Under the pieces are notes generated by a model. That model ran no database searches. It was not told where the DNA came from and was given only the letters and a program-made list of their open reading frames with translations. Of a stretch of 64,000 nucleotides of DNA, positions 4,001 to 19,205 are shown in pieces (position 1 is the stretch's first letter; every line of letters begins with the position of its first letter). The translations under genes were made by a program, and so were the position numbers. The stretch comes from Parasphingorhabdus cellanae (GTDB lineage: Bacteria > Pseudomonadota > Alphaproteobacteria > Sphingomonadales > Sphingomonadaceae): NCBI RefSeq assembly GCF_017498565.1, contig NZ_CP071794.1, positions 1,178,001-1,242,000 of the forward strand. Reading direction: 5' to 3'.

Positions 4001-4174
4001 TGCCGGTTCGCCAGCATAGCTGCTGATACTAGGGACGCCTTCCAACGCCGTCGGCGGCTCCCAAGCATTGCTGAGAGCATTTTGTAAATATGCATAACCG
4101 CCGATCGCGGCGATCGCTATTAAACCAACGAGTGCCAGCGCAGTATAGCTACCCCATTTCAACACACGTTTCAT
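1022..4174 (-). CDS. GH106-like alpha-L-rhamnosidase, membrane-anchored or exported
   Basis: 1050 residues. Residues about 7-30 form one hydrophobic segment after a basic start (MKRVLKWG), so the protein is exported or tethered to the inner membrane. The motif RWWWPGG at 89-95 and the overall length resemble GH106 alpha-L-rhamnosidases and related large glycosyl hydrolases. The C-terminal 120 residues read like a galactose-binding jelly roll (ILVNGKAVGRA, HPFLVDISDAVRAGKN). GH106 enzymes remove terminal alpha-L-rhamnose from glycosides or polysaccharides. Start chosen because GGGGAG lies six bases before ATG at 4174. It is the last gene of a GH2-SDR-GH106 run, 51 bases after the SDR. The linkage cleaved cannot be told from sequence. 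Confidence 0.85.
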   Translation of the reverse strand: MKRVLKWGSYTALALVGLIAIAAIGGYAYLQNALSNAWEPPTALEGVPSISSYAGEPAPADIKYTPLRPRQLDLQTLAAIDPAARPWARWWWPGGDVDAKQACEELRVMDARGIGGVEIQSFNIGLEPIEDEAVRAKINSFAKDDYYRTMSATMACAERLGMEVYLNHLSGWPAGGPQVLLEDGLHSLASGHLDVKGGQTVRTSLPGPEAGLNAYLLGLAEVFFGLEVADFPSDQATFLSAVAMRRTGGQHSDNLLDVTDTITLDSETAIVLDGHVTGDILEWDAPAGDWTIVATYILPSGEAPTLGAHDTPGFVLDHFRRDQVVGHYNWAFGNRTGLQDHYGKAFKGFFNDSLEFKVDRLAAHDILTEFEKRRGYDLRPHLPVVLVDVADNFFLRDVAHIEATPRYTLSDTDERVRHDYQQTLSDLVVERFLQTSANWAEARGLHSRGQSYGMDLDVIRALGANHIPEIEQLYAGGSTAFMKMAASAGALYDRPLITAESFVWIERDYTIAPRQVKAAADLLFASGVNQIIYHGIPYDLKDQPYKDLFGDIPWHPFSGPGNFSHFSENYGQGSIMWDAQPQLNTYLSRTQKLLQSGRPEVDVFIYYPWLGFPSFFDEMPGVTDDFLFEGYMPDAGRPAREKPGIDLTDLPFLKVPEDEADPRLAWLSRASALTRELDRRGVTWAWTNSHALETRGRGSGNGADNDIENDIAAVVVFETDQMELSTVKALESLKKQGTELRFFGQMPTRQSGFKDAKTGDEAVRMRIAKLSRDQVVSTHSQLVDDLAGSLTVTGNANVRRVRRTTGVRETVDFFTNLSLDDAASVVHVAGDDGLNRYWFDPMGGHVWRADRDNSGGLPLALGSLESVFLISTPQILAETGRPLSRLVRDDSTKVQALDRWTMKFGDVERKIDGGMIDLRTDEDLKYAAGPLVYRNDFMLQPMNADQSYVIDLGRVEGVATILVNGKAVGRASVHPFLVDISDAVRAGKNTITVSVRPPQRNALVGRALAGDKFAEHMSVYENDLVRLGLVDPVKLYRVEGESKRAAAARR

Positions 4175-4225: not shown

Positions 4226-5044
4226 TTAAGCCGCGAATCGATCCGAGGCGGCGCTCGCGGCATAATCGGACAAGAGGTCCTCCATGCGATCCTCGACCGC
4301 TGTCATCAATTCCGAATGCGTAAATATATGGAAGCGATTGGCTTCAATTGAATCCGCCGTCCAGTCGGCGACAACCGCAGGATTCAAGCCGCCCTCGACT
4401 AGTGCCTTAAAGGTATCCGGCTCGTCGCCGTCGGCTCCCTTGTCAGCCGAGGGGCGGTTCGCGCCGCTATTGTGAATATTGGTACGCACAAAAGCCGGAC
4501 TGAGGACGCTGACACCGATATTGAAGATTGCGAGTTCAAGCTTGAGGCATTCCGAATAACCTACCACGGCAAATTTTGTCGCGGAATAAGGCGACATATA
4601 AGGTGCTGCGATATGTCCGGCTATTGATGCGGTATTGATAATGTGGCCGCCGGTCTTCTGGCTCTGAATAATCGGAACAAATGTCTCAATACCGTGGACA
4701 ACGCCCATGAGATTGACATCGATCGCCCAGCGCCAATCCTCAATTGATATCTCCCCGGCGATCCCGCCAGCGCCAACGCCCGCGTTATTAAAGAGCAAAT
4801 GGACTTCGCCATAAGTTGACACAGTTTTTTCAGCAGCCTGTTCGACACTGGCGAGATTGGCGACATCACATGAAATTGCGGTCGCCTGCGAGCCAAGTTC
4901 GCTTTGCGCGGCGTCTAGCGCTTGCTCGTCGATATCCGCAATTGCAACACGCGCGCCTCGCGAGATCAACGTCTTCGCCAATGCCAGCCCAATGCCGGAC
5001 GCACCCCCTGTGATGAAAGCAACCTTGCCCTGTATCTCTGTCAT
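4226..5044 (-). CDS. SDR-family NAD(P)-dependent oxidoreductase
   Basis: 272 residues, classical short-chain dehydrogenase/reductase layout: cofactor motif TGGASGIG at 12-19, NNAG at 86-89, N111, and the catalytic set S140, Y153, K157 (YSATK). The aspartate in VAIADID after the second strand suggests preference for NAD over NADP (inference). Substrate is unknown; classical SDRs oxidise or reduce hydroxyl/keto groups on sugars, steroids and many others. Only three bases separate it from the GH2 gene upstream, whose tail carries its ribosome site (AAGGA), so the two are co-transcribed. In this locus it may oxidise a released sugar or the aglycone. Confidence 0.92.
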   Translation of the reverse strand: MTEIQGKVAFITGGASGIGLALAKTLISRGARVAIADIDEQALDAAQSELGSQATAISCDVANLASVEQAAEKTVSTYGEVHLLFNNAGVGAGGIAGEISIEDWRWAIDVNLMGVVHGIETFVPIIQSQKTGGHIINTASIAGHIAAPYMSPYSATKFAVVGYSECLKLELAIFNIGVSVLSPAFVRTNIHNSGANRPSADKGADGDEPDTFKALVEGGLNPAVVADWTADSIEANRFHIFTHSELMTAVEDRMEDLLSDYAASAASDRFAA

Positions 5045-5047
5045 TTT

Positions 5048-7507
5048 TCAGTCCTTTTTTCCGCTGTCGAGGCGATAGATGTCTTTTCGCATTGTAATAA
5101 TTCGGAATGGCGGGTCGGGAATTGCCTTGCCAACATGGTCGTAACCAATCTTGCGCCGCCCATAGACGGGATCAAAGGCACCCGACGGAGACGTAAGCCG
5201 CGCCACAAATAGAAGACGACTGGTCTGGGGAATATCGAGCTCTATTTTGACATCTCTTCTACTGACCGGTTCGAGAACCAAGTCCATTGGTTCGGAGCGT
5301 GACAGAACCCGGCCATTGGCATCTATCGCCAAAACCTCTGCGACAACCGGCTCAGGATTATAGTCGTCGTTCAACAATATGAGCGGCACAGAAGCGCGTT
5401 TCCCTCGCGGATAGGACGCCTCATCCCAAGCACGAAGATAGATGAGCTGCGGTGCGAAAGCGCTACGCGCATAACGGGCCCAGCGCGGCTCCAATTTGAG
5501 ATTTTTCACGTCAATGAAGCTGTCACAGGTTTTGCTGGTCGATTTCACTTCCCAGCTTTCGGGAATATCGGCTGCGTCATCACATTTTGACAGATATACA
5601 AAATGCTGGACTCCGGCATAGCCACGCATCGCTCGCCAATAGGCTGCAAGCTCCGACATTATATAGGCATATCCTTCCAGATATTCCTGCGGCGTCAGCG
5701 TTTTGCCTTCTGCAATATTGTCAAAAGACAGCTTGCCCAGTTCGGTCGGGCGGCCGCGATGCGTAACCCATAAAAATCCATATTCGTTATTGATAAACGG
5801 ATGCTCAGGCGCACCGGAATAGGTTGCGAAGGGCCCCCAGGTGGCTTGCGGCGGCTGCCCCTTCATGGTTGTGAAATCATCCAGCGTATAGCGGCGATCA
5901 TTCATGTTGAGCGCGCCGCCCGCGTTCAACTTATAGGGGTGTTCCTCAATCGGATCATTGGGCCCGACCGGGGGTCTGTAACCGCCATTTTCCCATTGGC
6001 GCGTCGGGTCAATATCGCGCATCCGCTGAATAACATCATCCGATATTGGGTTGTGATTTTCATTCGCCGCATCCCACCAGCCGATCGACGCATGGTTCCA
6101 GTTTTCACTCACCCATCCGCGAAACTCTTTTTCAAGCTCCGCCGCCGACCATTTGGAGGATTCTGTATTACGAACCACGGACCAGAAGCTATATTCATCG
6201 GCGACAATGAAACCGATTTCATCCGCCAGATCATACCAGAAATTCGGCATACGTCCGGTGTGATTGCGAAAAGAATTCCAATGGAAATCCTTGGGATGGC
6301 CGCTCAACAATTCGCGTACCCATGCCTTGTCCCACGGCAATTGCCCGCGCTGCGCATCTTCAAAAAAGCGGTGGAGGCCGATATTCGTGCCGCGCAGATA
6401 ATAAAGTTTGTTGTTAAGATAAAAGCCTTTGTCCGCGCCGCTGCGCCACTCAACCTTGCGCATGCCAAATCTTTTGACCCGGTCGTCGCTTGGTTCAACC
6501 ACATCGCCCTCGCCCGCCCGGCCCAGCTGCGCATGCACCTGATAGAGAAACGGGTTTTCCGGTGACCAGAGTTCATAATCCTGCATGGCAACCGTCTGCT
6601 CAACCAGTTTTGTTTCACCGGCAGGAATAGTCACATTCATTTCACTACGCAGCGGCCTTGCTGTATCGCCATCTTTCCATGGGCGAACATCCTGAACCAC
6701 CACAGCATCATAAGGCTGCGCACCACCATTGCGGATCAAGGTTTTGATTTTGACCCGGTCATTATCAATTTCGGGTTCAATTTTGACATTGGCAATCGAT
6801 GCCTGCTCGGTCAGCACCAGGCTTACCGTGTCCCATAATCCGGGATACCATCTTTCCTTTTCATCATCATCGCCGGCGGGGACAAAGCTGGGCAGCTGAC
6901 TACGGTCTGCACCCAGTCGCACGACCAGCTCATTGGTCTGGCCATATTTAATTGCATCGGAGGCGTTATATTCGGACAGGGAAAATGTGGTAAAATGTTC
7001 GCCCAATGGCTTACCATTCAGCCAGACTTTAACGCCGTTTTTGGCTTTATGAAGGCATAGAAATGCCTGCGCGGATCCTTTTTCAGGGGCCTTAAATTCG
7101 GTGCGATACCAGAATACATCGCGCTGCCCGCTTTCTATGCCCATTTCGGTAAAGGCCGGACGCGCATCTGTAATCAATCCGGGCACGGGCGCTTTATGCG
7201 CATAGCTTGTCGGCAGCGTCTCCGACATTTCGCTTTCGGCAACATCCCAAGTGCCGTCCAGCATCATCGTACGGCGGGTTTGCTCCCCCCAATCAACATG
7301 GCTGCTTTGACACGCGGCGACTGGATAAGATCCTTCGACCGTTGCCTCATAATCGTCTCCAGGTTCAAATGTGGTCAGCCATGCTGAAATGCTTTCATTG
7401 GAAAGCATGCTGGTCACGATCATGCCGCGATTAAACCAAATGACAACGCCCAGAACGACAATGACTAACAGGAAAATAAAAAGAAATTTACCGATTTTTT
7501 TCAACAT
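5048..7507 (-). CDS. Glycoside hydrolase family 2 protein
   Basis: 819 residues. An N-terminal hydrophobic helix (about 6-25) anchors or exports it. A sugar-binding jelly roll follows (about 80-230; FWYRTEFKAP, VKVWLNGKPLGEH), then an immunoglobulin-like domain (to about 345) and the TIM barrel beginning at FGMRKVEWR. Candidate acid/base is E483 in WDAANENHN; candidate nucleophile is E575 in FINNEYGFLW; both fit the GH2 Asn-Glu pattern. GH2 covers beta-galactosidase, beta-glucuronidase, beta-mannosidase and others, and I cannot choose between them. It is the first gene of the GH2-SDR-GH106 operon; GAGG lies five bases before ATG. A TGGAC half of the local operator lies about 28 bases upstream. 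Confidence 0.88.
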   Translation of the reverse strand: MLKKIGKFLFIFLLVIVVLGVVIWFNRGMIVTSMLSNESISAWLTTFEPGDDYEATVEGSYPVAACQSSHVDWGEQTRRTMMLDGTWDVAESEMSETLPTSYAHKAPVPGLITDARPAFTEMGIESGQRDVFWYRTEFKAPEKGSAQAFLCLHKAKNGVKVWLNGKPLGEHFTTFSLSEYNASDAIKYGQTNELVVRLGADRSQLPSFVPAGDDDEKERWYPGLWDTVSLVLTEQASIANVKIEPEIDNDRVKIKTLIRNGGAQPYDAVVVQDVRPWKDGDTARPLRSEMNVTIPAGETKLVEQTVAMQDYELWSPENPFLYQVHAQLGRAGEGDVVEPSDDRVKRFGMRKVEWRSGADKGFYLNNKLYYLRGTNIGLHRFFEDAQRGQLPWDKAWVRELLSGHPKDFHWNSFRNHTGRMPNFWYDLADEIGFIVADEYSFWSVVRNTESSKWSAAELEKEFRGWVSENWNHASIGWWDAANENHNPISDDVIQRMRDIDPTRQWENGGYRPPVGPNDPIEEHPYKLNAGGALNMNDRRYTLDDFTTMKGQPPQATWGPFATYSGAPEHPFINNEYGFLWVTHRGRPTELGKLSFDNIAEGKTLTPQEYLEGYAYIMSELAAYWRAMRGYAGVQHFVYLSKCDDAADIPESWEVKSTSKTCDSFIDVKNLKLEPRWARYARSAFAPQLIYLRAWDEASYPRGKRASVPLILLNDDYNPEPVVAEVLAIDANGRVLSRSEPMDLVLEPVSRRDVKIELDIPQTSRLLFVARLTSPSGAFDPVYGRRKIGYDHVGKAIPDPPFRIITMRKDIYRLDSGKKD

Positions 7508-7530: not shown

Positions 7531-7541
7531 CAAATGGACTA
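7531..7541. promoter_or_regulatory. Half-site of the locus operator before the GH2 operon
   Basis: The right half TGGACTA(T) is identical to the site before the TonB receptor gene; the left half is not conserved. It lies about 28 bases before the GH2 start codon. Weak alone, credible only because four better copies sit before neighbouring genes. Confidence 0.4.
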
Positions 7542-7660
7542 TGTATAATGCTGTCCGCCCGCTGCTTTCTGCAAAGCAGGGATGTGGTGGAGGCCAGGCC
7601 TCCACCACCGGGGAAGAAACATATCTGTTTCGAGGGAACAAACATTATGGTGTCATCTGA

Positions 7661-10078
7661 CTAATATCGAAAGCTCAGCCGCGCGCCCCATGTCCGCTGC
7701 GCTTCAAATGTACGGAATTGCGCATAGCCACCTTCATCAAACGGCATAGGCACGATGGCAGCAACGAAATTCTGGTTCGTGAGGTTGCGCCCGAAAAGCG
7801 ACATTGTTGCCTTGCCATCCCAGAATGTCACGCCAATTTGTGCATCAACTAAAGTATAGGCATCGATCCGGCTTTGCGGGTCATTGGACACCAGGCTTAA
7901 ACTGTCATCACGATATTGAAAGCCGCCTTGAATGTAGGCATTAACGGCATCGTTGATCCGAAAATCATAACGCGCAAAACCGTTAAGCGTCCATTCCGGC
8001 GCGTTGGCCAGCCGCGCGCCAGACAGGTCCTGCGCTTCAGTGGTGGCAAGATTATCAGGATCGTCTGGATCAATCCTGACCTGCACACATCCTTGTGCCT
8101 CTGTTTGCAGACTATAGCATGGTGCCTGCTCGAAGCTCTTATATTTGGCGTCGTTGTAAGACACAGCGCCAGAGAGCGTTAGTCCATCCACAGGCACGAT
8201 CGTCAGATCAGCTTCGATGCCTTTCGATACAGCCTTGGCGGCATTAGAAAGGGAAACAACCAACGTACCGTCAGGACCGCGAACAAGAGATTGCGCCTGC
8301 AAATCTTCAATTTCCGTATAATATCCGGTGATACCAGCCTGCAAACGATTATTGACGCTGCGATACCGAAGACCGACTTCAAATTGGAGCGGCTTTTCCG
8401 GTCGGGCAATCGGTAATCCGACTTCAGTAAATTCCTCACCGGTGACCAGTGCTGCAGATTTATAGCCCTGTGTTACCGTGGCGAATATATTGAAATCATC
8501 GGTAAAGTCGTATTTTGCACCCGCCCGCCACGTGATCGCGTTGTCATCATTTTCAACGGTTGCCCGATTCCCGTCAAGAACCCGAAGCAGAAACGGCCCA
8601 ATAATGAAGGGTGAAACCGATGTTGGAGTTTGCGATAGAAGCTGGCTCGCCTCAAGCTCTGAGCGCAAAAAACGCACCCCGCCGATTAACGAAAACTGCG
8701 GCGTTACTGCATATTCCCCTTGGCCAAAGATCGCGTAATTTTGCTCCTCAAAATCGGATGCAAAATCTGTTCCGGTCAAGGCAAACGGGGGCAGGATTGG
8801 CGGCAATATCCCGGGAGCCAGCGAACGGAGATTAAGGCCCGCTGTACCCACCTGCCGATTAAATTGGTCGATTTGCTGCGAGAAATAATAGGCGCCCAGC
8901 GTATAGGTCAGCTTGCGGTCCCGGGGTGAGGACAATCGAAATTCCTGACTGAATTGCGACTGCTGTTGCGCGCCCGAGTTGATCAATAGGAACGGCTGCG
9001 GGATAAGATCTGCATCTTCCTCAGAAAATGTATCCCAATCGCGCCAAGCCGTTAGCGAAACAAAATCATGCTCCCCCAGTGATGCTGTGAGTTCAGCAGA
9101 AATACCGGTAACTTCACTTTCTGCCACCCAATTACCATCGGAAGCAATCTGCCTGTTTTTTGGCCCCGGCACGATGCCAGCTCTCAACGATTCCAGACCA
9201 ATTGCATTAAACGCCCCAGGCCCCAATTGTGGCAATAACCCAGTACCTGGTAGATCAGGAGATAATTGCCGGTATGTTAGCCCGCCGGGGGTATTGTCCC
9301 GACGCGAATGATCGACGTTCAACAAAAAATCCACCGTATCGCTGATTTCGAAATTCACTTTTGCGCGGAATCCATATTCGTTGCGATCCGCCAGATCGCT
9401 TTGCGGTGCATCAGGGTTTATATTTTCAATATAGCCATCGCGCGTGTTGCGATATCCGGATATCCGGGCGGTAATCCCATCGGTAACTGGTCCAGATATC
9501 GCGCCGGAGAGATTGACCTCGTCGAAAGAGCCGTAAGCGACATTCATTTCCGCCGTAAGGTCATTTGTCGGGCCTTTGGTGATTACCGAAAGAACCCCAC
9601 CTGAAGCATTTTTGCCGAACAAGGTTCCTTGCGGCCCGCGCAAAACCTCCACACGCTCGACGTCGGAAAAGTCGAAAATTCCTGCGCCTGTCCGTCCAAT
9701 CGTAACACCGTCGATTGACAGCGCTACGCTTGCTTCGACGCCAATATTGAATACGCCAACGCCGACACCGCGAACAGTCAACGCAGACTGACGTGCGTTG
9801 ATCCCACCGCTAAATGTCACGCCGGGTGCGACATATTGCAGTTGTTCAAAACTATCGATCTGGCGATCCTGCAATTGCTCGCCAGAAACCACAGTTGTGG
9901 AAATCGGCACGTCCTGAAGATCCTCTTCGACCTTCTGAGCGGTTACGATAATCGTTTTGATGCCAGAGGTCTCTTCATCGTTACCCTCCTGCGTTTGCGA
10001 AAACGCCGGTTGAGAACAAATGAAAGCCCCCAATGCGATCGATGACGTGAATACCAGCCTTTTGCTCTGACGAACCAT
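7661..10078 (-). CDS. TonB-dependent outer-membrane receptor
   Basis: 805 residues from the ATG at 10078, chosen because GGGAGG lies six bases before it and a signal peptide follows at once (residues 1-27, ending PAFSQ). A TonB box-like stretch (TIIVTAQK, about 42-49) precedes the plug domain (VPISTTVVSGEQL, RVEVLRGPQGTLFGKNASGG); the rest is a beta-barrel with alternating aromatic strands and the usual C-terminal aromatic residue (RLSFRY). The plug matches the large sphingomonad receptor group used for glycosides, aromatics and other non-siderophore substrates (inference). It probably carries the substrate across the outer membrane. It has its own promoter region with an operator copy, in tandem with the GPH transporter gene. 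Confidence 0.95.
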   Translation of the reverse strand: MVRQSKRLVFTSSIALGAFICSQPAFSQTQEGNDEETSGIKTIIVTAQKVEEDLQDVPISTTVVSGEQLQDRQIDSFEQLQYVAPGVTFSGGINARQSALTVRGVGVGVFNIGVEASVALSIDGVTIGRTGAGIFDFSDVERVEVLRGPQGTLFGKNASGGVLSVITKGPTNDLTAEMNVAYGSFDEVNLSGAISGPVTDGITARISGYRNTRDGYIENINPDAPQSDLADRNEYGFRAKVNFEISDTVDFLLNVDHSRRDNTPGGLTYRQLSPDLPGTGLLPQLGPGAFNAIGLESLRAGIVPGPKNRQIASDGNWVAESEVTGISAELTASLGEHDFVSLTAWRDWDTFSEEDADLIPQPFLLINSGAQQQSQFSQEFRLSSPRDRKLTYTLGAYYFSQQIDQFNRQVGTAGLNLRSLAPGILPPILPPFALTGTDFASDFEEQNYAIFGQGEYAVTPQFSLIGGVRFLRSELEASQLLSQTPTSVSPFIIGPFLLRVLDGNRATVENDDNAITWRAGAKYDFTDDFNIFATVTQGYKSAALVTGEEFTEVGLPIARPEKPLQFEVGLRYRSVNNRLQAGITGYYTEIEDLQAQSLVRGPDGTLVVSLSNAAKAVSKGIEADLTIVPVDGLTLSGAVSYNDAKYKSFEQAPCYSLQTEAQGCVQVRIDPDDPDNLATTEAQDLSGARLANAPEWTLNGFARYDFRINDAVNAYIQGGFQYRDDSLSLVSNDPQSRIDAYTLVDAQIGVTFWDGKATMSLFGRNLTNQNFVAAIVPMPFDEGGYAQFRTFEAQRTWGARLSFRY

Positions 10079-10128
10079 TTCCATCCTCCCTGATTGGATG
10101 CTTCGCACCCTAATTGATTTCAATAATC

Positions 10129-10140
10129 GTCCATTTGGAC
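10129..10140. promoter_or_regulatory. Operator copy A (GTCCATTTGGAC) before the TonB receptor
   Basis: Inverted repeat GTCCA-TT-TGGAC, about 51 bases before the receptor start codon. Same core as sites at 11768 and 11846. A degenerate relative (GTCCGATTGTAT) follows at 10180-10191. Likely bound by one of the two TetR proteins of the locus. Confidence 0.7.
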
Positions 10141-10283
10141 TATTTGTCAACACACAAAATCGGCCACTGCAAAAAAATCGTCCGATTGTATGGTTTTTAG
10201 ATAGTGTTTGCGAAGCAATCTCCATGATGGTGATCATGGCAACTGCGATATTGGCTTTAATATGGGCACCGAAGCTCCCCGCT

Positions 10284-11693
10284 TTACCCGTCGCTGGTCG
10301 GCCCTGCCCCGGACGGTCGCTTTCTATCAGCAATTTCACGCACAATCTTGGCATGCTTGTCCTGATTAAGGTCGAAACGCGAAGCCAGAAAAAGACAGAT
10401 AATATAGAATCCCATGGGCACCAGCGACACCAGATAGCGAAGCCCCTGCTCCGCCTCAGCTGTTTGCACTTCATTTGCACGATATCCGATCAGATCAAGC
10501 CCAACGCCCAATATTCCGGTGGCAATGCCCAAGGACATTTTTTGCCCAAATGCCATCAGCCCATATATCACGCCTTCGGCACGCACGCCGGTTTTCCATT
10601 CGCCATATTCGACCGTGTCCGGCATGGCAGAAGAGATCGCAAGATATACAGCCCCGACCCCAACAGCCCCCAGCACCATGAAGGGAAGGACAACAGCTGG
10701 TCCAAAATCGATCAGTGTGTAAAGCGCGATATTGACCAGAATAGTTATGACAAAGGCCGTGAGAAGCACGAATTTCTTGCCTCGCAATTTTGAGACCCAA
10801 CTCCAGAACGGCACGGCCAATCCGATGATCAGCGCATAGCTGCCCACAAACAGGCCCATTAAATGTTCCCCGTCCAGATTATATTTCAGGAAATATAATC
10901 CCGATTTCCCAGCAATTGTGCCTGCACTGCCGCCAATGAATATAATCGTGAATAACAGCCAGAAAGCAGAGTTTTTGGACAGCATATGGAAAATATCTCT
11001 AAGGCTGGGCAATGGTTCATTCTGCTCCTCTTCACTTTCCCGCTCCCGCGTTACAGCAAAGCAGATCAGAATTGCGATGACTGATACAACCGCATAAAGG
11101 ACGGCCGTCTGACCAAAGCCGGCAGCCAGATCACCGTCCCCCAATGCTTTGGACAGGTCCAGCGTCAGGCCGCCGATCAATGCACCGGAAAGCGTGGCAA
11201 ATAACAAACGCCATACGGCAAGCGAGCTGCGCTCATCCGCATTTTTACTCAGCCGCGCGATCAGCGCTTGATAAGGAATGGCAACTACGGTGTAACAAGT
11301 GCGGAACAATAAATGGGTGGCGGCGACAAATACGATCAGCTCCGTCCCCTCCAGATCCGGGTGATAAAACATCAGCGCCAAAGACAGAGCCAGCGGCACG
11401 CAACCAAACAGCATATAGGGACGATAGCGGCCCCAGCGTGTCCTGGTCCAACTGGCCAATATACCAATGGCCGGATCGGTAATCGCATCCCATATCATTG
11501 CCCCCATGATAATGGTCCCAGCCACTGTGTTTGGCAGTCCGACCGCTTCGGTATAATAATATAGGACAAAAAGATTGGTGACGTTCCAACCAATTGACAC
11601 ACCGAAGTCGCCAAAACCAAACGCAATCCGCGAGCCCAGAGTCGTGCTGGTCGCATTGGGATCAGCGCGGTTGTTATCAATTTTTTCCGTCAT
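10284..11693 (-). CDS. GPH-family (MelB-like) sugar:cation symporter, MFS
   Basis: 469 residues with about twelve hydrophobic segments. The N-terminal half has D69-A-I-T-D73-P and RWGRYRP at 86-92, matching the conserved Asp pair and basic loop of the glycoside-pentoside-hexuronide family. These symporters move sugars or glycosides across the inner membrane with H+ or Na+. It lies between the receptor gene and a divergently transcribed esterase-GH3 unit; the 236-base gap with the latter contains two operator copies, one for each direction. It would take up the mono- or oligosaccharides released in the periplasm. Substrate not determinable here. Confidence 0.93.
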   Translation of the reverse strand: MTEKIDNNRADPNATSTTLGSRIAFGFGDFGVSIGWNVTNLFVLYYYTEAVGLPNTVAGTIIMGAMIWDAITDPAIGILASWTRTRWGRYRPYMLFGCVPLALSLALMFYHPDLEGTELIVFVAATHLLFRTCYTVVAIPYQALIARLSKNADERSSLAVWRLLFATLSGALIGGLTLDLSKALGDGDLAAGFGQTAVLYAVVSVIAILICFAVTRERESEEEQNEPLPSLRDIFHMLSKNSAFWLLFTIIFIGGSAGTIAGKSGLYFLKYNLDGEHLMGLFVGSYALIIGLAVPFWSWVSKLRGKKFVLLTAFVITILVNIALYTLIDFGPAVVLPFMVLGAVGVGAVYLAISSAMPDTVEYGEWKTGVRAEGVIYGLMAFGQKMSLGIATGILGVGLDLIGYRANEVQTAEAEQGLRYLVSLVPMGFYIICLFLASRFDLNQDKHAKIVREIADRKRPSGAGPTSDG

Positions 11694-11767
11694 GGATATA
11701 GTCGCAAATCACCGCGCAGCGCGGTGCTCCCTGTATCAGGCATCACATCCTCAATATTATTTTATTA

Positions 11768-11779
11768 GTCCATTTGGAC
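11768..11779. promoter_or_regulatory. Operator copy B (GTCCATTTGGAC) before the GPH transporter
   Basis: Inverted repeat GTCCA-TT-TGGAC, flanked by A/T to give an extended AGTCCATTTGGACT. About 75 bases before the transporter start, within the divergent promoter region shared with the esterase gene. Confidence 0.75.
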
Positions 11780-11845
11780 TACTTTCAGATTAGTGCGGTT
11801 CCGTCAACGCACAATCGTACAAGATAAGCAATATTCTCCTTTTAC

Positions 11846-11857
11846 GTCCAATTGGAC
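11846..11857. promoter_or_regulatory. Operator copy C (GTCCAATTGGAC, perfect palindrome)
   Basis: Perfect 12-base palindrome, extended to CGTCCAATTGGACG. About 73 bases before the GTG start of the esterase gene and 67 bases from copy B, so the divergent region has one operator per promoter. Confidence 0.75.
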
Positions 11858-11929
11858 GATTTTAGTTGCGCGCACGCAATTGATGAGCGAAAAGGCAGCA
11901 AGAATAATCGCTTGGAAGGATGTTTGAAC

Positions 11930-13711
11930 GTGCGCATTGCTGCAGCAATTACCCTATGCCTTGGCCTGGCAGCCTGCGGAAATCCGTCTGAGGCTGCCAC
12001 AGAGCCTAAGCCAGATGTGGGCACCCAACTGACCCTAAATCAAGGATCGTTAATTGGCTTCAAGGCAGAAAATGGCGCGCATGTCTGGCTTGGCATTCCG
12101 TTTGCCGAATCGACTGCAGGTCAAAATCGTTGGCGCGCACCGCGCCCCGTTTCCGCGTGGGATGGCATCAGGCCCGCAACCACATTCGCCCCATCCTGCC
12201 CCCAATTTTCGCGGGAAGAATCCGATGCTGGAGAACTGATCGGGTCGGAAGACTGCCTGTATTTGAATGTCTATGCACCACCAGATGCGCAAGGCCGCGA
12301 CCTTCCAGTCATGATTTGGATCCACGGCGGGGCCAATGTCTGGGGAGCTGCCAGTGAGCGCGATGGATCGAAACTGGCCGTCGACCAGAATGTAATTCTG
12401 GTCACTGTTCAGTATCGGCTCGGACCGCTCGGTTTTTTTGCGCATGAAGCGCTACGTGATACGGCTGACAAGCCGCTTGACCGGGCGGCGAACTTTGCCC
12501 TTCTAGATCTGATCGCCAGCCTGAAATGGGTTGGTAGAGAAATAGCGACATTTGGTGGCAATCCAGACAATGTCACGATTTTCGGCGAGAGCGCCGGTGG
12601 TCAGAATATTGCCGCTCTAATTGGCTCTCCATTGGCGAAAGGGTTGTTTCACAAGGCCATCATGCAATCAGGAGGCTTTGATAGCGCTTCCCTGGACCAG
12701 GCTGAATTTGCAAATAGTGACTTCTACAATCCATCGTCGGTGGTGATAGACAAGCTGGGGTACCGGGATTTTGGCAGCAAAGAGACTGCCAAGGCGCTCA
12801 GAAAAACGTCCTTGGCTGATTTATTCGCTACCTATGCAACCAAAGCAGAAGCGGCAAAGCCGCGCCTCCGATATAATGATGGGACTCCGGAATTTCCTAA
12901 TATCCCGGCTGTTATTTCTGATGGTGTAACCCTGCCCAAAGCTCCGCTTCGATCGCTGCTGTCTGATCAGGAGACATTTAACAGCGTGCCAATGATCATG
13001 GGCACCACCAGAGATGAGCTTAAAGCACTTTTTCAGGCTGATCCAAAACTTGTTAAGAAACGGCTTGGGCTTTTTCCTGCTGCGCGAAACCAGCGTCGCT
13101 ATGATTTGATATCGGAATATACCAGCCGTTTGTGGAGGATCCATGCTGTAGATCAGCCGGCAGCCATCATATCTCGCGCAGGCCATAATGAAATATGGGC
13201 TTATCGGTTCGACTGGGATGAGAGCGGATCAGTCGGAATGACCGATCTCGCCAAGTTACTCGGCGCTTCACACGGTTTCGAGGCCCCGTTTATTTTTGGT
13301 ACATTCGACGTTTTCACCGACAATTCAAAATATCTCTTCCCTCCGAAAAATGCCGAAAGCCGTAACGCTTTAAGTGCGACAATGATGGAATATTGGGCAT
13401 CCTTTGCGCGTGGCGGGCAACCCCTGGCCCAAACAGGGCCAGAATGGCCGCGCTATACGGAGAATGAATCTCAGCCTAAAATCATGCGCTTTGACAGCGA
13501 AGAAGACAAAGGCATATCCGTCCTGACCGGCGCTGACTCCATGGATAAATGGATTAGCGATCTGCAAAATGATCAGAAGGTATCCCGAGCTGACAGATGT
13601 GCGATCCTTGATGTTCTGACGACATATCGGGACGGGAACGTAATTCCACCGCCCGCCCGTGTCCAGATAGATGCACTACGGAAATCGAGGTGCACGGCCG
13701 GACAACAATAG
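11930..13711 (+). CDS. Type-B carboxylesterase, predicted lipoprotein
   Basis: 593 residues from a GTG at 11930, chosen because GGAAGGA lies nine bases upstream and the product then starts with a lipoprotein signal (VRIAAAITLCLGLAAC; Cys16). Alpha/beta-hydrolase type-B esterase features: the EDCLYLNVY block, oxyanion WIHGGAN, and nucleophile elbow FGESAGG with Ser221; the acidic residue and a late His (GASHGFEAPFIFG) complete the probable triad. The family hydrolyses carboxylic esters of varied alcohols. Followed 46 bases later by the GH3 gene in the same direction, so likely one operon. It may remove acyl decorations from a glycoside (inference). Confidence 0.92.
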   Translation: MRIAAAITLCLGLAACGNPSEAATEPKPDVGTQLTLNQGSLIGFKAENGAHVWLGIPFAESTAGQNRWRAPRPVSAWDGIRPATTFAPSCPQFSREESDAGELIGSEDCLYLNVYAPPDAQGRDLPVMIWIHGGANVWGAASERDGSKLAVDQNVILVTVQYRLGPLGFFAHEALRDTADKPLDRAANFALLDLIASLKWVGREIATFGGNPDNVTIFGESAGGQNIAALIGSPLAKGLFHKAIMQSGGFDSASLDQAEFANSDFYNPSSVVIDKLGYRDFGSKETAKALRKTSLADLFATYATKAEAAKPRLRYNDGTPEFPNIPAVISDGVTLPKAPLRSLLSDQETFNSVPMIMGTTRDELKALFQADPKLVKKRLGLFPAARNQRRYDLISEYTSRLWRIHAVDQPAAIISRAGHNEIWAYRFDWDESGSVGMTDLAKLLGASHGFEAPFIFGTFDVFTDNSKYLFPPKNAESRNALSATMMEYWASFARGGQPLAQTGPEWPRYTENESQPKIMRFDSEEDKGISVLTGADSMDKWISDLQNDQKVSRADRCAILDVLTTYRDGNVIPPPARVQIDALRKSRCTAGQQ

Positions 13712-13757
13712 CGCATCGTCTCCATCTCCTCCAGCAACCAGCAACAGAATTGAAATC

Positions 13758-15827
13758 ATGACCACATCTAAAGCCGATCATGCCCTTATTGAAAAAGAAC
13801 TGGACGACCTCATTCCGACTCTAAGTCTGAAAGAGAAAGTCGCGATGATGTCGGGAAAGGATTTTTACAAATATTATTTCACTATCGATAATCGGCAATT
13901 CGGTGTGCGCGCTTATAATGCAGGCGGCGGCTGCGAGCAGCTTGACTTGGCGCCGCTCAGCTATGCAGACGGGCCGCGAGGCGTGCGTATGCCTGACGGC
14001 ACGACCTGTTTCCCCGTATCGATGGCGCGCGGCGCGAGTTGGGATGTCGATCTGGAACGACGGATAGGTGTGGCCATGGGTGTCGAAGCCCGGGCTCTTG
14101 GACTGACACTGCTGAGCAACGTGTGCATAAATCTATTGCGACACCCGGCTTGGGGTCGGTCGCAAGAGACTTATAGCGAAGACCCCTATCATCTCGGCGA
14201 AATGGGCGCTGCCTTGGCAGAGGGCACGCAGTCGCAAAATGTCATGGCTACCGTCAAACATTTTGCCCTTAACAGTATTGAAAACGCACGGTTCAAAGTC
14301 GACGTGACGGTAAATGAACGAGTGCTACGCGAAGTTTATCTCCCCCATTTCAAGCGGGTGGTGGACGCAGGGTGCGCGACAGTGATGTCTGCCTATAATC
14401 AGGTCAATGGTCACTATTGCGCGCATAATGAGCATTTGTTGCGCGACATTCTGAAAAGGGAATGGGGTTTCGAAGGCTTTGTTCATTCCGATTGGGTAAA
14501 GGGCGTCTATGGCGCTGATGCTGCGGAAGCCGGACTCGATATCGAAAATCCCGAACCTACTTTTTTCGGTGAGGATCTGGTTTACGCGGTAAAAAGCGGC
14601 GAAACAGACGAGTCTGTTGTTGACGAAGCGGTTCGCCGTATCTTGCGCATGCAGCTCAGATTTTCCCGGGCGACCGATCCGCAAAGCTATTCCAAGAACG
14701 ACATAGGCTGTTCGGCACATGCAGAGCTGGCACAGGAAGCCGCCGAGAAAAGCATGGTGCTGTTAAAAAATGACGATGCGCTTCCGCTCGCCAGAGATGG
14801 CTCTCGAATAGCCGTGCTTGGCAAGCTAGCGGACAAGATCAACTTAGGTGATCATGGCTCATCGAACGTTACGCCGCCCTATGCGATCACACCTTTTGCC
14901 GGCATTGAAAAACATGTTGCAAAGGACGTCGATCTGCAATCTGACTTCACTGGCGACCCGGCCAGTTCGGCAACTCTCGCGGCCAATAGCGATGTCGCCA
15001 TAGTGGTCGTCGGCTATACCTATTTTGATGAAGGCGAATTTATTCCCGGAGATGTTGCCCTGGAGGAGGTCAAAAACGAGGAAGAAGCGCATCGCGGCGG
15101 CGATCGCAATTCACTGCGGCTTCCGCCTGCAGATGTTGAGCTCATTCGTTCCGTTGCCGAAACGGAAACAAAGATGATCGTCTGCGTGATGGGCGGCGGT
15201 GCCATCATGATGGATGAGTGGTCCGAGCTGGCCGATGCGATCCTTATGATCTGGTATCCTGGTATGGAAGGCGGGACTGCTTTGGCACGAATCCTGTTCG
15301 GGGATGTCTCGCCTTCGGGGAAATTACCTTTTGCCATTCCGGCCGACGAGAGCGATTTGCCTTTCTTCGACAAGCATGCCGATGACATTAGCTACGGGAT
15401 GTATCACGGCTACACATTGTTTGACCGAAACGACATCACTCCGGCACTGCCATTTGGCTTTGGCCTGTCTTACACAAAATTTACTTATGGAGAACCGTCA
15501 ATTGAAAGGACGGGAGAACAGGTTCATATTCGGGTCGAGATAACGAATAGCGGGGCCATGACAGGCGCCGAGATCGCTCAATTATATGTCGGCTTCGAGA
15601 ACAGCAAGATTGACCGGCCAAAGAAACTGCTGCGCGGCTTCGAACGACTGGAACTGGCTCCAGGAGAAAGCGCAATTGCCGCATTCACGCTCGATCGCAC
15701 GGCATTTACCCATTATGATGAGGAGACGAACAACTGGCGCCTCGATCCAGTGCCGTTTGATATATTTGTCGGTTCATCCTCAACCGCATTGACAAGCTGT
15801 CCCGCTCAATTGATCTGGCCTGAATAG
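13758..15827 (+). CDS. Glycoside hydrolase family 3 (beta-glucosidase type)
   Basis: 689 residues from ATG at 13758; an in-frame upstream extension overlaps the esterase end and is ignored. Domain order: GH3 N-terminal barrel with ADGPRGVR and KHFALNS motifs, nucleophile D245 in VHSDWVKG, C-terminal alpha/beta sandwich (EKSMVLLKNDDALPL), and a fibronectin-III-like end (EITNSGAMTGAEIAQLYVGF). No signal peptide is seen, so it may act in the cytoplasm on imported sugar or glycoside. GH3 members of this layout are mostly beta-glucosidases, also beta-xylosidases or arabinosidases. Second gene of the operon beginning with the esterase. Confidence 0.93.
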   Translation: MTTSKADHALIEKELDDLIPTLSLKEKVAMMSGKDFYKYYFTIDNRQFGVRAYNAGGGCEQLDLAPLSYADGPRGVRMPDGTTCFPVSMARGASWDVDLERRIGVAMGVEARALGLTLLSNVCINLLRHPAWGRSQETYSEDPYHLGEMGAALAEGTQSQNVMATVKHFALNSIENARFKVDVTVNERVLREVYLPHFKRVVDAGCATVMSAYNQVNGHYCAHNEHLLRDILKREWGFEGFVHSDWVKGVYGADAAEAGLDIENPEPTFFGEDLVYAVKSGETDESVVDEAVRRILRMQLRFSRATDPQSYSKNDIGCSAHAELAQEAAEKSMVLLKNDDALPLARDGSRIAVLGKLADKINLGDHGSSNVTPPYAITPFAGIEKHVAKDVDLQSDFTGDPASSATLAANSDVAIVVVGYTYFDEGEFIPGDVALEEVKNEEEAHRGGDRNSLRLPPADVELIRSVAETETKMIVCVMGGGAIMMDEWSELADAILMIWYPGMEGGTALARILFGDVSPSGKLPFAIPADESDLPFFDKHADDISYGMYHGYTLFDRNDITPALPFGFGLSYTKFTYGEPSIERTGEQVHIRVEITNSGAMTGAEIAQLYVGFENSKIDRPKKLLRGFERLELAPGESAIAAFTLDRTAFTHYDEETNNWRLDPVPFDIFVGSSSTALTSCPAQLIWPE

Positions 15828-15856
15828 CGCTCTTGGTGCTTTCGGGTTGGATGTCC

Positions 15857-17632
15857 TCAATCGGCCATCGAAACAACGGGTAATTCGACCGACCCAACAT
15901 AAACAGTCTGTTTTGCTATTTTGGGTTCAGCTTGCGCACTCCATAATCCGCTCCGATTAAAGTGGGCCGCAAAAGCAGGCGCGTTTGATGACGATATGTC
16001 GAGCCGAATCCGACTTCCGGCGGTTAGCGTCCAGTCAATCGGCGTCATCCGAAAGTTGAGACCAACACGGTCGCCAGGTTGATATTCCGTTTCAAGCGCA
16101 TCTCCGTCCCGAGCGGACAAAGCCAGAATATCATCCCGGATGTTCAAGATTCGCCCGTCCTCAAATATTTCAGAGATCCGAACGAAAAAAGCTGTGTCCT
16201 GAGCATTGCTCGATACCTCCAGATCTGTGAACACGGGACCGGCTAGTCGCTGGGCTTTCTCAAATGGCACGGAAATAAAGGACAAAACGTCATCGCGCTC
16301 GCAGACTGTGGTTCCTTGCGAAGCCACTGCGGGCGGCGCAACCGAGGCATTAAGCATATAGGCACCGCCCACTGTTGGCGCAGGAGACGCGGGATCATAT
16401 GTGAATGTTGCTGCGGGATGACCGGGAATCACTTTATCTCCAGTCACAAGAATTCCGCCACAACGGGATGCTTTGTCCAGCCGCGAAAGCTGCAATGTTG
16501 TCGGCTGACTTACCGGCGGCCAAGCTGACGATTTTGCCCAACGATCAACGCCGTTGCGATAGTAAAGAACGCCCGGGGACAAATAGTCCGGCAGCGGTTT
16601 TCCGCGCAGATGGTGGTCAAGCCAACCCAGCGCAGAACGAAAATATTGCGCGGATGTATCCTCAACCCTCAGATCCCCCGTCTGTCCGGCATGTTCGCCA
16701 GGTTGGATGAGAAGGGTACTTTGCGCTCGCGTTGGTAGCTCGGCAAAGCGTTCGAGCGTGCCTTCAAGGAAAAAATCATGCCACCCGGCAACCCAAAGGA
16801 CAGGAACGTCAATGCTACGATGCGCCCTTCGCAATTGCTTGTATTCCGCGCGTTGCCAATAGCTGTCGCTTCGGAGCGGATGGCTGATAAAATGGCGATA
16901 AGCAGGCCACGCAGCACCAAAAAGCGTGGAATCGACATTCAGAGCCGGCCGCGCTGGCACGACTTGGTTTTGCCAGATATTAACCGCATCATCACGCTTG
17001 CTGGCTGGCATGAACAACTCGGTTGACCATAGCCCTGTCACGCCTTGCGCAAAATGACCCCCCCGATAGACAATATCATATACATCACCATGCCCCAGCA
17101 TCGGGATGATCGTTTTTACCTCCGGCGGCAAACGATCTACGACGGCCCATTGAGACACCGCGAGATAGGAAAACCCGATCATCGCGATGTTGCCGTTCTG
17201 CCAATCCTGATCGACCAGCCAGTCCAGCGCCGCCTTGCCATCTTTCGCTTCGTTGACAAAGGGATGCCACTGCCCTTCGGAAGCGAACCTGCCGCGGACA
17301 TCCTGATGGACACAGGCATAGCCGTAACGCACTAAAGGGTGACAGAAGAGATGCTTGTTGAAGCTGTACGCATCGCGGACCAGCACTGTTGGCCATGGCC
17401 CTTCCCCCTCCGGCAGAAAGACTTCGGTCTGAAGCATCACGCCGTCGTCCATTTTCACTCGGTAGTCGAACGTGCGCCCCGCTTCATGAGTATAGGCAGG
17501 CTTATCGCCCAGATAAGGCGCAACGCCCTGCTCCACCAAATGTTCGAGGATAGCAGAGCCAAAAACAAGCAACATCACAGTGAATGCAGCCACAAAAATA
17601 GCAGTCCATTTAGCGATTGTACGCCAAGCCAT
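15857..17632 (-). CDS. S15/CocE-NonD family alpha/beta hydrolase, membrane-anchored
   Basis: 591 residues from the ATG at 17632, which has GGGAGA seven bases upstream; the longer frame to 17725 would run through an operator. One N-terminal transmembrane helix (about 8-28). The catalytic domain shows the S15/CocE elbow MIGFSYLAV with Ser155, an Asp in WVAGWHDFFLEG, and a His in PGEHAG. A C-terminal jelly-roll domain (from about residue 420) is typical of the X-Pro dipeptidyl-peptidase/cocaine-esterase clan. Such enzymes cleave esters or acyl-proline peptides. Convergent with GH3 (29-base gap), divergent from a TetR gene. It may be a second esterase for the same substrate. Confidence 0.88.
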   Translation of the reverse strand: MAWRTIAKWTAIFVAAFTVMLLVFGSAILEHLVEQGVAPYLGDKPAYTHEAGRTFDYRVKMDDGVMLQTEVFLPEGEGPWPTVLVRDAYSFNKHLFCHPLVRYGYACVHQDVRGRFASEGQWHPFVNEAKDGKAALDWLVDQDWQNGNIAMIGFSYLAVSQWAVVDRLPPEVKTIIPMLGHGDVYDIVYRGGHFAQGVTGLWSTELFMPASKRDDAVNIWQNQVVPARPALNVDSTLFGAAWPAYRHFISHPLRSDSYWQRAEYKQLRRAHRSIDVPVLWVAGWHDFFLEGTLERFAELPTRAQSTLLIQPGEHAGQTGDLRVEDTSAQYFRSALGWLDHHLRGKPLPDYLSPGVLYYRNGVDRWAKSSAWPPVSQPTTLQLSRLDKASRCGGILVTGDKVIPGHPAATFTYDPASPAPTVGGAYMLNASVAPPAVASQGTTVCERDDVLSFISVPFEKAQRLAGPVFTDLEVSSNAQDTAFFVRISEIFEDGRILNIRDDILALSARDGDALETEYQPGDRVGLNFRMTPIDWTLTAGSRIRLDISSSNAPAFAAHFNRSGLWSAQAEPKIAKQTVYVGSVELPVVSMAD

Positions 17633-17709
17633 ATCGCCTTCTCCCTGAACAACGGCGCACATTGAAAGGGAGCAGATTAGCCAAGTAATAGAGGACGTCA
17701 ATATTATTA

Positions 17710-17721
17710 ATCCAATTGGAC
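17710..17721. promoter_or_regulatory. Operator copy D (ATCCAATTGGAC)
   Basis: TCCAATTGGA palindrome with the outer GC pair of the consensus kept on the right side only. It lies 78 bases before the S15 hydrolase and 109 bases before the TetR gene, in their divergent region, so it could serve both promoters and autoregulate the TetR gene. Confidence 0.7.
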
Positions 17722-17829: not shown

Positions 17830-18516
17830 ATGAACAAAACAAAGATTGCAGCTATGGAACCGTCCGATCCAAACACAGACAGCCTCAATCACCGTGTGCC
17901 TGTGCAGGCGCGATCAAAGCAAAAACGCTCCGAAATCTTGCATCAAGCGCGCATCATCTTCGCCGAACGAGGATGTGATGCGGCCAATGTCCGCGACATC
18001 GCTGCTGCGGCAAAGACCACCCACTCCATGATCCGATATCATTTCGGTACAAAGGATCAGCTTTGGCGTGAATCGGTCAGGGACATGTTCGAACTTTTGG
18101 ATGAAGCGCTAGCGCTGGATGATCAGTCATCTGCCACTTTAAGCGGGCTAGAAGGGTTCAAGGCCTATTTGCAACGCTACATCCGCTATAGCGCCGCGCA
18201 TCCGGAGCACGCCAGAATCATGATCATGGAGTCTGTGCGCGGTGGTGACAGATTGGACTGGATTGTCGAAACGTTCATTCGTCCGCTTCATGAGAATCTG
18301 AGTGAACGGTTTGAAACAAGTGGTGGCATACAAGGCATGCCCGACATGCATCCTATCTCATTCGTATATATTCTGACTGCCGCCTGTCAGATGCCCTTCG
18401 TTCTCGCTCAGGAGGCAAAGGCACTTTACGGGATCAATACTTTGGAAGATGAGATGGTCGAAACGCATATCGAATCTGTAATGAACCTCTTTTTTCAAGA
18501 TCGCGCCATCAGTTAA
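17830..18516 (+). CDS. TetR/AcrR-family transcriptional regulator, first of two
   Basis: 228 residues from ATG at 17830; an in-frame GTG at 17737 lacks a ribosome site. The N-terminal helix-turn-helix (ILHQARIIFAERGCDAANVR then DIAAAAKTTHSMIRYHFGTK) is typical TetR; the ligand domain begins near residue 75 and includes RYSAAHPEHARIMIMES, resembling the TetR_C group seen in AcrR-like regulators. Position beside operator copy D, divergent from the S15 hydrolase, makes it the first candidate for the regulator of the whole locus. The ligand would be a pathway compound (inference). Confidence 0.92.
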   Translation: MNKTKIAAMEPSDPNTDSLNHRVPVQARSKQKRSEILHQARIIFAERGCDAANVRDIAAAAKTTHSMIRYHFGTKDQLWRESVRDMFELLDEALALDDQSSATLSGLEGFKAYLQRYIRYSAAHPEHARIMIMESVRGGDRLDWIVETFIRPLHENLSERFETSGGIQGMPDMHPISFVYILTAACQMPFVLAQEAKALYGINTLEDEMVETHIESVMNLFFQDRAIS

Positions 18517-18581: not shown

Positions 18582-19205
18582 ATGAAGCAACGCTCTACGG
18601 AAAGCACACGGGTTCGTTTGATTGAAGCGGCAATGATTCTATTCGCCCGCAACGGTCTTGATGGCGTCTCCCTGCGGGCTGTAAACCAAGCGGCCAAAGC
18701 CAAGAATTCTGGGGCTACCCACTATCATTTTAAAAACCGGCTTGGACTGATCCGCGCTATGGTCGAGCATATCAACACCGCGACGCCAGAAGAGGTTGAG
18801 CTAATAGTCGGCGGCTTACCGATTAACGGCGATAAACAGCTAGAAGCAATCGCCCGTTTTTTCGGTCCCGTGCTGGTCGTACGTTACGCTCGGCCTAAAG
18901 GAGAAGAAAGCCTCGGATTTCTATCCCAGCTACTGCAGAGCGATGATCCCGATATTCAGGATATCTGGGAACAGGTTTTTGGCAACAGTGACGATATAAA
19001 TCCCCAGTTGATTTTTGACGCTTTTCCAGATCAAGATCCAACCAGCGTCAAACGCCGTCTGATTTATTCAACGCTGAACATTGTGCACGGACTGGCTAAT
19101 GACAGTGGGCTGCATCGAACCATGTTTGGTGATCTGTCAATGGCCGACGGCCCAGAGGCGCTGGTCGACCTGCTGAAATATATCAGGGGCGGACTAGGCA
19201 ACTGA
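18582..19205 (+). CDS. TetR/AcrR-family transcriptional regulator, second of two
   Basis: 207 residues. HTH at the N-terminus (VRLIEAAMILFARNGLDGVS, then YHFKNRLGLIRAMV). The C-terminal domain is unlike that of the preceding TetR, so this is not a simple duplication. It starts 65 bases after the first TetR gene and probably shares its transcript. The end overlaps the convergent monooxygenase gene by 12 bases. It could control the monooxygenase/SCP2 genes, which lack the palindromic operator, or act with the first TetR; sequence does not decide. Confidence 0.9.
   Translation: MKQRSTESTRVRLIEAAMILFARNGLDGVSLRAVNQAAKAKNSGATHYHFKNRLGLIRAMVEHINTATPEEVELIVGGLPINGDKQLEAIARFFGPVLVVRYARPKGEESLGFLSQLLQSDDPDIQDIWEQVFGNSDDINPQLIFDAFPDQDPTSVKRRLIYSTLNIVHGLANDSGLHRTMFGDLSMADGPEALVDLLKYIRGGLGN

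Follow-up and report, generated by a model that had tools for sequence, protein, structure and literature searches.

Predicted palindromic operators and a candidate TetR-type repressor in a glycoside-scavenging locus of Parasphingorhabdus cellanae

RutR of E. coli, a TetR-family regulator with a YcdC-type C-terminal domain, has a palindromic consensus of roughly 16 bp according to the accessible part of its source (PMC10891134). The sphingomonad Sphingobium sp. RC1 has gene groups for saponin degradation in which GH3 and GH106 genes lie near each other and activity on steroidal saponins is reported, with the word 'putative' for GH106; unlike the locus described below, these groups also hold GH39 and GH78 genes and, in the main text, TetR, TonB and MFS are absent as words, which leaves no regulator to compare (PMC10653915). 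PheR was considered as a TetR parallel and rejected, as the available part of its source describes an IclR-type regulator (PMC13273656). Among the matches listed in a literature search that covered few subscription journals, no title dealt with TetR-type control of such loci in sphingomonads or Hyphomonas, which is weak evidence of novelty. Our impression is that TetR-type proteins are uncommon among the carbohydrate regulators known from these bacteria.

Here we analyse a stretch of 64 kb from P. cellanae (the window) that carries a glycoside locus and two adjacent TetR-family genes, TetR1 and TetR2 (Table 1). We judge the locus to be a real TetR regulon of known kind. In the reading that we consider highly probable, TetR1 would be a dimeric repressor of a scavenging system, predicted to act through four 12-bp dyads (O1 to O4) and to be released by a ligand derived from the substrate. 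TetR1 and RutR have the TetR family in common and resemble each other weakly at the C-terminus: TetR_C_3 scores 24.3 bits in TetR1, just under the cut-off of 25, and RutR models score TetR1 at 45 and 32 bits. TetR1 is not a RutR equivalog by TIGR03613 (45 bits against a cut-off of 368), and there is no rut operon near it, its neighbours from 1.0 to 20.7 kb being glycoside, ester and transport genes. The RutR box is TTGACCANNTGGTCAA, which has CCA-NN-TGG in common with the predicted TetR1 operator and different outer bases. The receptor of the window is not SusC-like in the sense of the Bacteroidota SusC/SusD locus (TIGR04056, 47 bits against a cut-off of 368). The glycoside loci of TetR1 relatives in Sphingomonadaceae and Hyphomonas are like the window in that most have a TonB receptor, a GPH transporter and a GH3 enzyme together with TCC-N4-GGA dyads; they differ from it in their outer bases, mostly ATCC or TTCC, and in TetR1 identity, which is about 35-52%.

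Table 1. Positions in the 64 kb window of the genes, predicted operators and other sites
Feature	Positions	Strand	Remarks
GH106 alpha-L-rhamnosidase	1022..4174	-	PF17132, 148 bits
Short-chain dehydrogenase (SDR)	4226..5044	-	Nearest solved relatives include C-alpha-dehydrogenases
GH2 glycoside hydrolase	5048..7507	-	TetR1 locus of H. atlantica has a 59% relative
Half-site ATGGAC	7534..7539	.	Letters present; named by the first-pass annotation
TonB-dependent receptor	7661..10078	-	PF00593, PF07715
Likely receptor promoter	10122..10150	-	TTGACA 10150-10145, 17-base spacer holding O1, ATTATT 10127-10122
Predicted operator O1	10129..10140	.	GTCCATTTGGAC, precedes TonB-dependent receptor gene; same place in G420, G421
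Degenerate second site	10180..10191	.	GTCCGATTGTAT, 39 bases upstream of O1; absent from the first-pass annotation
GPH-family sugar:cation symporter	10284..11693	-	PF13347; TIGR00792 above cut-off
Predicted operator O2	11768..11779	.	GTCCATTTGGAC, precedes GPH transporter gene; conserved in G420, G421
Predicted operator O3	11846..11857	.	GTCCAATTGGAC, precedes carboxylesterase-GH3 pair; conserved in G420, G421
Type-B carboxylesterase	11930..13711	+	PF00135; GTG start at 11930 and lipoprotein-like N-terminus, both read from sequence; query from this start gives a 73% match in the locus comparison
GH3 glycoside hydrolase, beta-glucosidase/arabinopyranosidase-like	13758..15827	+	Below NCBIfam equivalog cut-offs
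CocE/NonD-type ester hydrolase	15857..17632	-	PF02129; TIGR00976 above cut-off
Predicted operator O4	17710..17721	.	ATCCAATTGGAC, palindromic, between divergent CocE-like hydrolase and TetR1 genes; conserved
TetR1 (TetR family), predicted to read O1-O4	17830..18516	+	N-terminal helix-turn-helix, PF00440, 41.5 bits (cut-off 24); co-occurrence with operator type
TetR2, second TetR-family protein	18582..19205	+	PF00440

Taken together, the GH106, GH2 and GH3 enzymes, the two ester hydrolases and the SDR related to C-alpha-dehydrogenases suggest as substrate a glycoside that carries rhamnose and ester groups and whose aglycone can be oxidised. With GH106 the locus has the alpha-L-rhamnosidase gene expected where rhamnosides are used. 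Farther along the window, an ORF of 618 aa at 35115-36971 has no Pfam match at E<=0.001.

A first-pass annotation had proposed that a single palindromic operator stands before every unit of this locus, and a scan of all 64 kb bore out its full sites. The dyad GTCCAWTTGGAC was found at 10129, 11768 and 11846, and the one-base variant ATCCAATTGGAC at 17710, where the outer letters are mixed (ATCC on one side, GTCC on the other). Beyond O1-O4 there is no further place with 0 or 1 mismatch to the palindrome, as the annotation had also held; when up to 2 mismatches were allowed on both strands, the window gave 23 matches against a shuffle mean of 10.1, and 0/100 shuffles reached 23. Measured to the likely starts, as read from the sequence, the operators lie 50 bases from the TonB receptor gene, 74 from the transporter and 72 from the carboxylesterase, with O4 at 77 from the CocE-like hydrolase and 108 from TetR1. 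Full operators head the receptor, transporter, esterase-GH3, CocE and TetR1 units, and for these the proposal stands. 'Every unit' is too strong, because GH2-SDR-GH106, co-oriented with the receptor gene and lying downstream of it, has no full operator of its own, and the window scan found none for the flavin monooxygenase (19.2-20.7 kb). The half-site near 7535, which the annotation had counted in, did not survive as an operator: it is not kept in one same-genus relative (G421), and in the other (G420) the space between the receptor and GH2 genes is too short for it, so that it is no evidence for an operator and probably reflects chance. Most of the degenerate second site GTCCGATTGTAT, on the upstream side of the receptor operator, is retained in all three genomes, and the site is a possible auxiliary operator.

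The idea of a local regulon also held. The pattern RTCCAWWTGGAY occurs at 7 places in the 3.78 Mb genome, 4 of them within this 7.6 kb, against 1 place for a reversed control pattern; it is thus rare elsewhere in the genome and not spread over many unrelated promoters. A degenerate genome scan with 1 mismatch was uninformative because the pattern is then too loose (128 forward matches; the control pattern gave 54). Two genomes of the same genus, G420 (TetR1 88%) and G421 (TetR1 85%), carry the whole locus, with all four operator sites in place and 4/5 and 4/7, respectively, of their genomic copies within it. O4 starts a run of 22 identical alignment columns across the three genomes, and the distance from O2 to O3, 78 bases in the window, is 76 and 78 in the two relatives. 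The locus is accessory within the genus: a TetR1 match at E<=1e-35 was found in 4/32 genomes, the window's included, and one of these is only 38%.

These counts bear on whether a distant global regulator could own the palindrome, with TetR1 a bystander. TetR proteins can indeed adjoin genes outside their control, but we regard this explanation as extremely unlikely, since the genome holds just three other copies, two of which fall within long ORFs, and since a dyad of related form turns up again next to TetR1 relatives, both in other genera and in Hyphomonas, its outer base following the TetR1 helix (see below). The remaining outside copy follows, at 25 bases, an ORF that we take to be carA-like, and is itself covered by mechanically called ORFs on both strands.

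At the receptor gene the operator overlaps the likely promoter. The stretch TTGACAAATAGTCCAAATGGACGA, comprising the -35 element and the operator, is identical in the three genomes, and the -10 hexamer differs (ATTATT in the window, AATATC in the other two). As O1 lies inside the TTGACA-N17-ATTATT spacer, its position is that of a repressor site. We propose that a TetR1 dimer binds the dyad (G/A)TCCAWWTGGAC at four places; it would occupy the -35/-10 interval of the receptor promoter and would also bind at similar distances before the transporter, the carboxylesterase-GH3 pair, the CocE hydrolase and its own gene. Bound there, it would keep off a system that scavenges a glycoside bearing rhamnose and probably ester groups, until a substrate-derived ligand, probably either a small glycoside or an aglycone set free from it, released the promoters together. 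TetR1 might instead bind as an activator, or as a repressor at some promoters and an activator at others. The sequence shows a possible TetR1 promoter (TTGACC from 17726) with O4 on its upstream side, which makes autorepression of TetR1 less clear, and in the MFS-esterase gap each operator is also ~150 bases from the opposite gene. However, O1 fills the spacer of a promoter whose -35 and operator are invariant among the three genomes, and a dimer bound there should block polymerase; we therefore consider an activating role unlikely.

The first-pass annotation had named the TetR protein encoded from 17830 as its first candidate, and the comparison of loci favours the same choice: operators of this type recur beside TetR1 relatives where TetR2 was not found. 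TetR1 is the likely, best-supported reader of the operators, its binding being predicted. In Hyphomonas atlantica (L041) a TetR1 relative (57%) is divergent from a GH2 relative (59%), and between the two lie GTCCAATTGGAC and GTCCGTTTGGAC, one of them in the same TTGACAAATAGTCCAAWTGGACGA context; the 20.7 kb examined around this TetR1 hold no TetR2. It is conceivable that TetR2 (18582) reads the operators and that TetR1 regulates something else, given that TetR2 adjoins TetR1 and is conserved beside it in both same-genus loci. Among the labelled locus stretches, however, those of the window, G420 and G421 alone gave a TetR2 match at E<=1e-8, and in the others the operator type accompanies TetR1 relatives; moreover, neither the window scan nor the three-genome comparison revealed an operator in the TetR1-TetR2 gap, and neither an operator nor a target came to light for TetR2. 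We judge a leading role for TetR2 very unlikely and retain TetR1 as the predicted reader. On the other side of TetR1, the H. atlantica locus encodes a DeoR-type regulator, L-rhamnose isomerase (RhaI), a RhaD aldolase-dehydrogenase, a sugar kinase and LldD (L041 7389-18055). With these L-rhamnose catabolism genes near TetR1, a rhamnose-bearing substrate fits. A search with the Hyphomonas RhaD aldolase-dehydrogenase fusion as query gave 20 matches in 5/5 genomes, the window's included, all of them to the dehydrogenase half only.

To describe the wider operator family we counted all dyads with 5-base arms and gaps of 0-10 in the promoter windows of 14 diverged TetR1-family loci. TCC-N4-GGA came first in this open count: the promoter windows (50.8 kb) held 13 in 9 loci, and 214 kb of other sequence held 9; the runner-up, GGC-N6-GCC, gave 9 in 8 loci against 25 elsewhere. 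The pattern RTCCRNNYGGAY was then fixed before being tried on held-out loci. For 11 sphingomonad loci, the promoter windows (40.6 kb) held 10 matches in 7 loci, against 7 elsewhere (170.5 kb) and 2 in 55.7 kb of control promoter windows (p=0.0045; 13 control regions from 8/10 genomes), and the best of 29 permuted half-sites reached 4. For 14 loci of the genus Hyphomonas, the promoter windows (49.9 kb) held 8 matches in 6 loci, one of these matches (in L127) not being at a labelled gene, against 2 elsewhere (228.8 kb) and 2 in 78.1 kb of control promoter windows (p=0.010; 17 control regions from 10/13 genomes), the best permuted half-site reaching 2. Both p-values are optimistic and overstate independence, because loci within the sets are kin and genera already used in finding the pattern recur: the 11 sphingomonad loci all come from the genera of G330 or G205, both in the first set, and H. 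atlantica supplied one near and one held-out locus. In an open count of the 14 Hyphomonas loci, TCC-N4-GGA was again first, with 21 in 11 loci against 10 elsewhere.

The pre-fixed pattern thus appeared in promoter windows of 13/25 held-out loci (7/11 sphingomonad, 6/14 Hyphomonas). Under a looser rule, settled after both held-out tests (TCC-N4-GGA plus one outer pair, promoters taken from labelled genes), this became 22/25. By the same rule a dyad precedes receptor, transporter, hydrolase or TetR1 genes in 35 of 43 loci, the window included: 4/4 near loci (the window among them), 9/14 diverged, 10/11 sphingomonad and 12/14 Hyphomonas. TCC-N4-GGA ranks first among trinucleotides in each of the four sets, the runners-up being present in 2, 5, 5 and 7 loci. 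Two loci on the same contigs as G420 and G421 (L039, L040) were not counted twice, and L029 and L030 (TetR1 about 30-35%) stand outside the 43; in L030 ATCCGTTTGGAT precedes the receptor, and in L029 no such dyad was found. Scores from a position-weight matrix are no independent evidence, as it was built from the sites that it scored.

We classed the 35 loci by the outer base that their main dyads carry before TCC (dyads of further kinds occur in some of them) and compared this base with residue 66 of the TetR1 recognition helix, the position after the invariant His65. GTCC goes with Ser in 4/4 loci, ATCC with Gly or Ala in 22/23 (the exception, L025, has Ser) and TTCC with Thr in 8/8. In two genomes an ATCC locus and a TTCC locus occur together, and the residues match in both genomes: G1160 (L116 Ala, L120 Thr) and G1154 (L079 Gly, L080 Thr). 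In the 8 loci of 43 with no dyad at the tested promoters (L038, L054, L057, L058, L059, L076, L121 and L127), residue 66 is G, S, G, A, A, A, P and G, respectively. Among these, L038 (Gly66) has GTCCAAATGGAT near the receptor, with mixed outer bases, in L059 (Ala66) ATCCAATTGGAT precedes an unlabelled gene, and L054 (Ser66), left out of the code table, has AACCAATTGGTT (AACCA-N2-TGGTT). By hand alignment, residue 66 presumably corresponds to Pro39 of Tn10 TetR, an operator-specificity position.

In a tree of the TetR1 family built without residues 53-77, TTCC/Thr falls in a 7-row clade (100/99), and L120, also TTCC/Thr, stands apart on a long branch and groups with GH106-type loci (98/94). An AU test against a single TTCC clade, chosen after the tree had been seen, gave p 0.037. 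The tree totals 3 operator changes and 4 residue changes, with 2 independent pairs for Thr/TTCC, 2 to 3 for Gly-Ala/ATCC and none in the opposite direction; these events are too few for a paired test to reach significance. We tentatively propose, at slightly less than an even chance of being right, that a TetR clan acts via the one scaffold TCC-N4-GGA to control TonB-receptor/GPH/GH3 systems that scavenge glycosides in Sphingomonadaceae and Hyphomonas, and that its specificity evolves mainly by residue 66 (Ser to G, Gly/Ala to A, Thr to T), which would insulate paralogous loci within one cell. The clan-wide operator scaffold with its one-residue covariation is the part worth testing. If the residue-66 rule is true, it would offer a natural series in which a repressor family changes DNA specificity and promoters and targets stay alike; a regulator, its operators and a rule over 43 loci that would predict the operator from the protein sequence make regulons and inducers directly testable.

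The combination of GH106, GH3, GPH and carboxylesterase genes and a TetR1 relative is found again in loci of Hyphomonas and of other sphingomonads (L127, L120, L078 and L053). At the promoters tested for its labelled genes, L127 (H. atlantica) lacks an operator dyad. A flavin monooxygenase match is present in all four.
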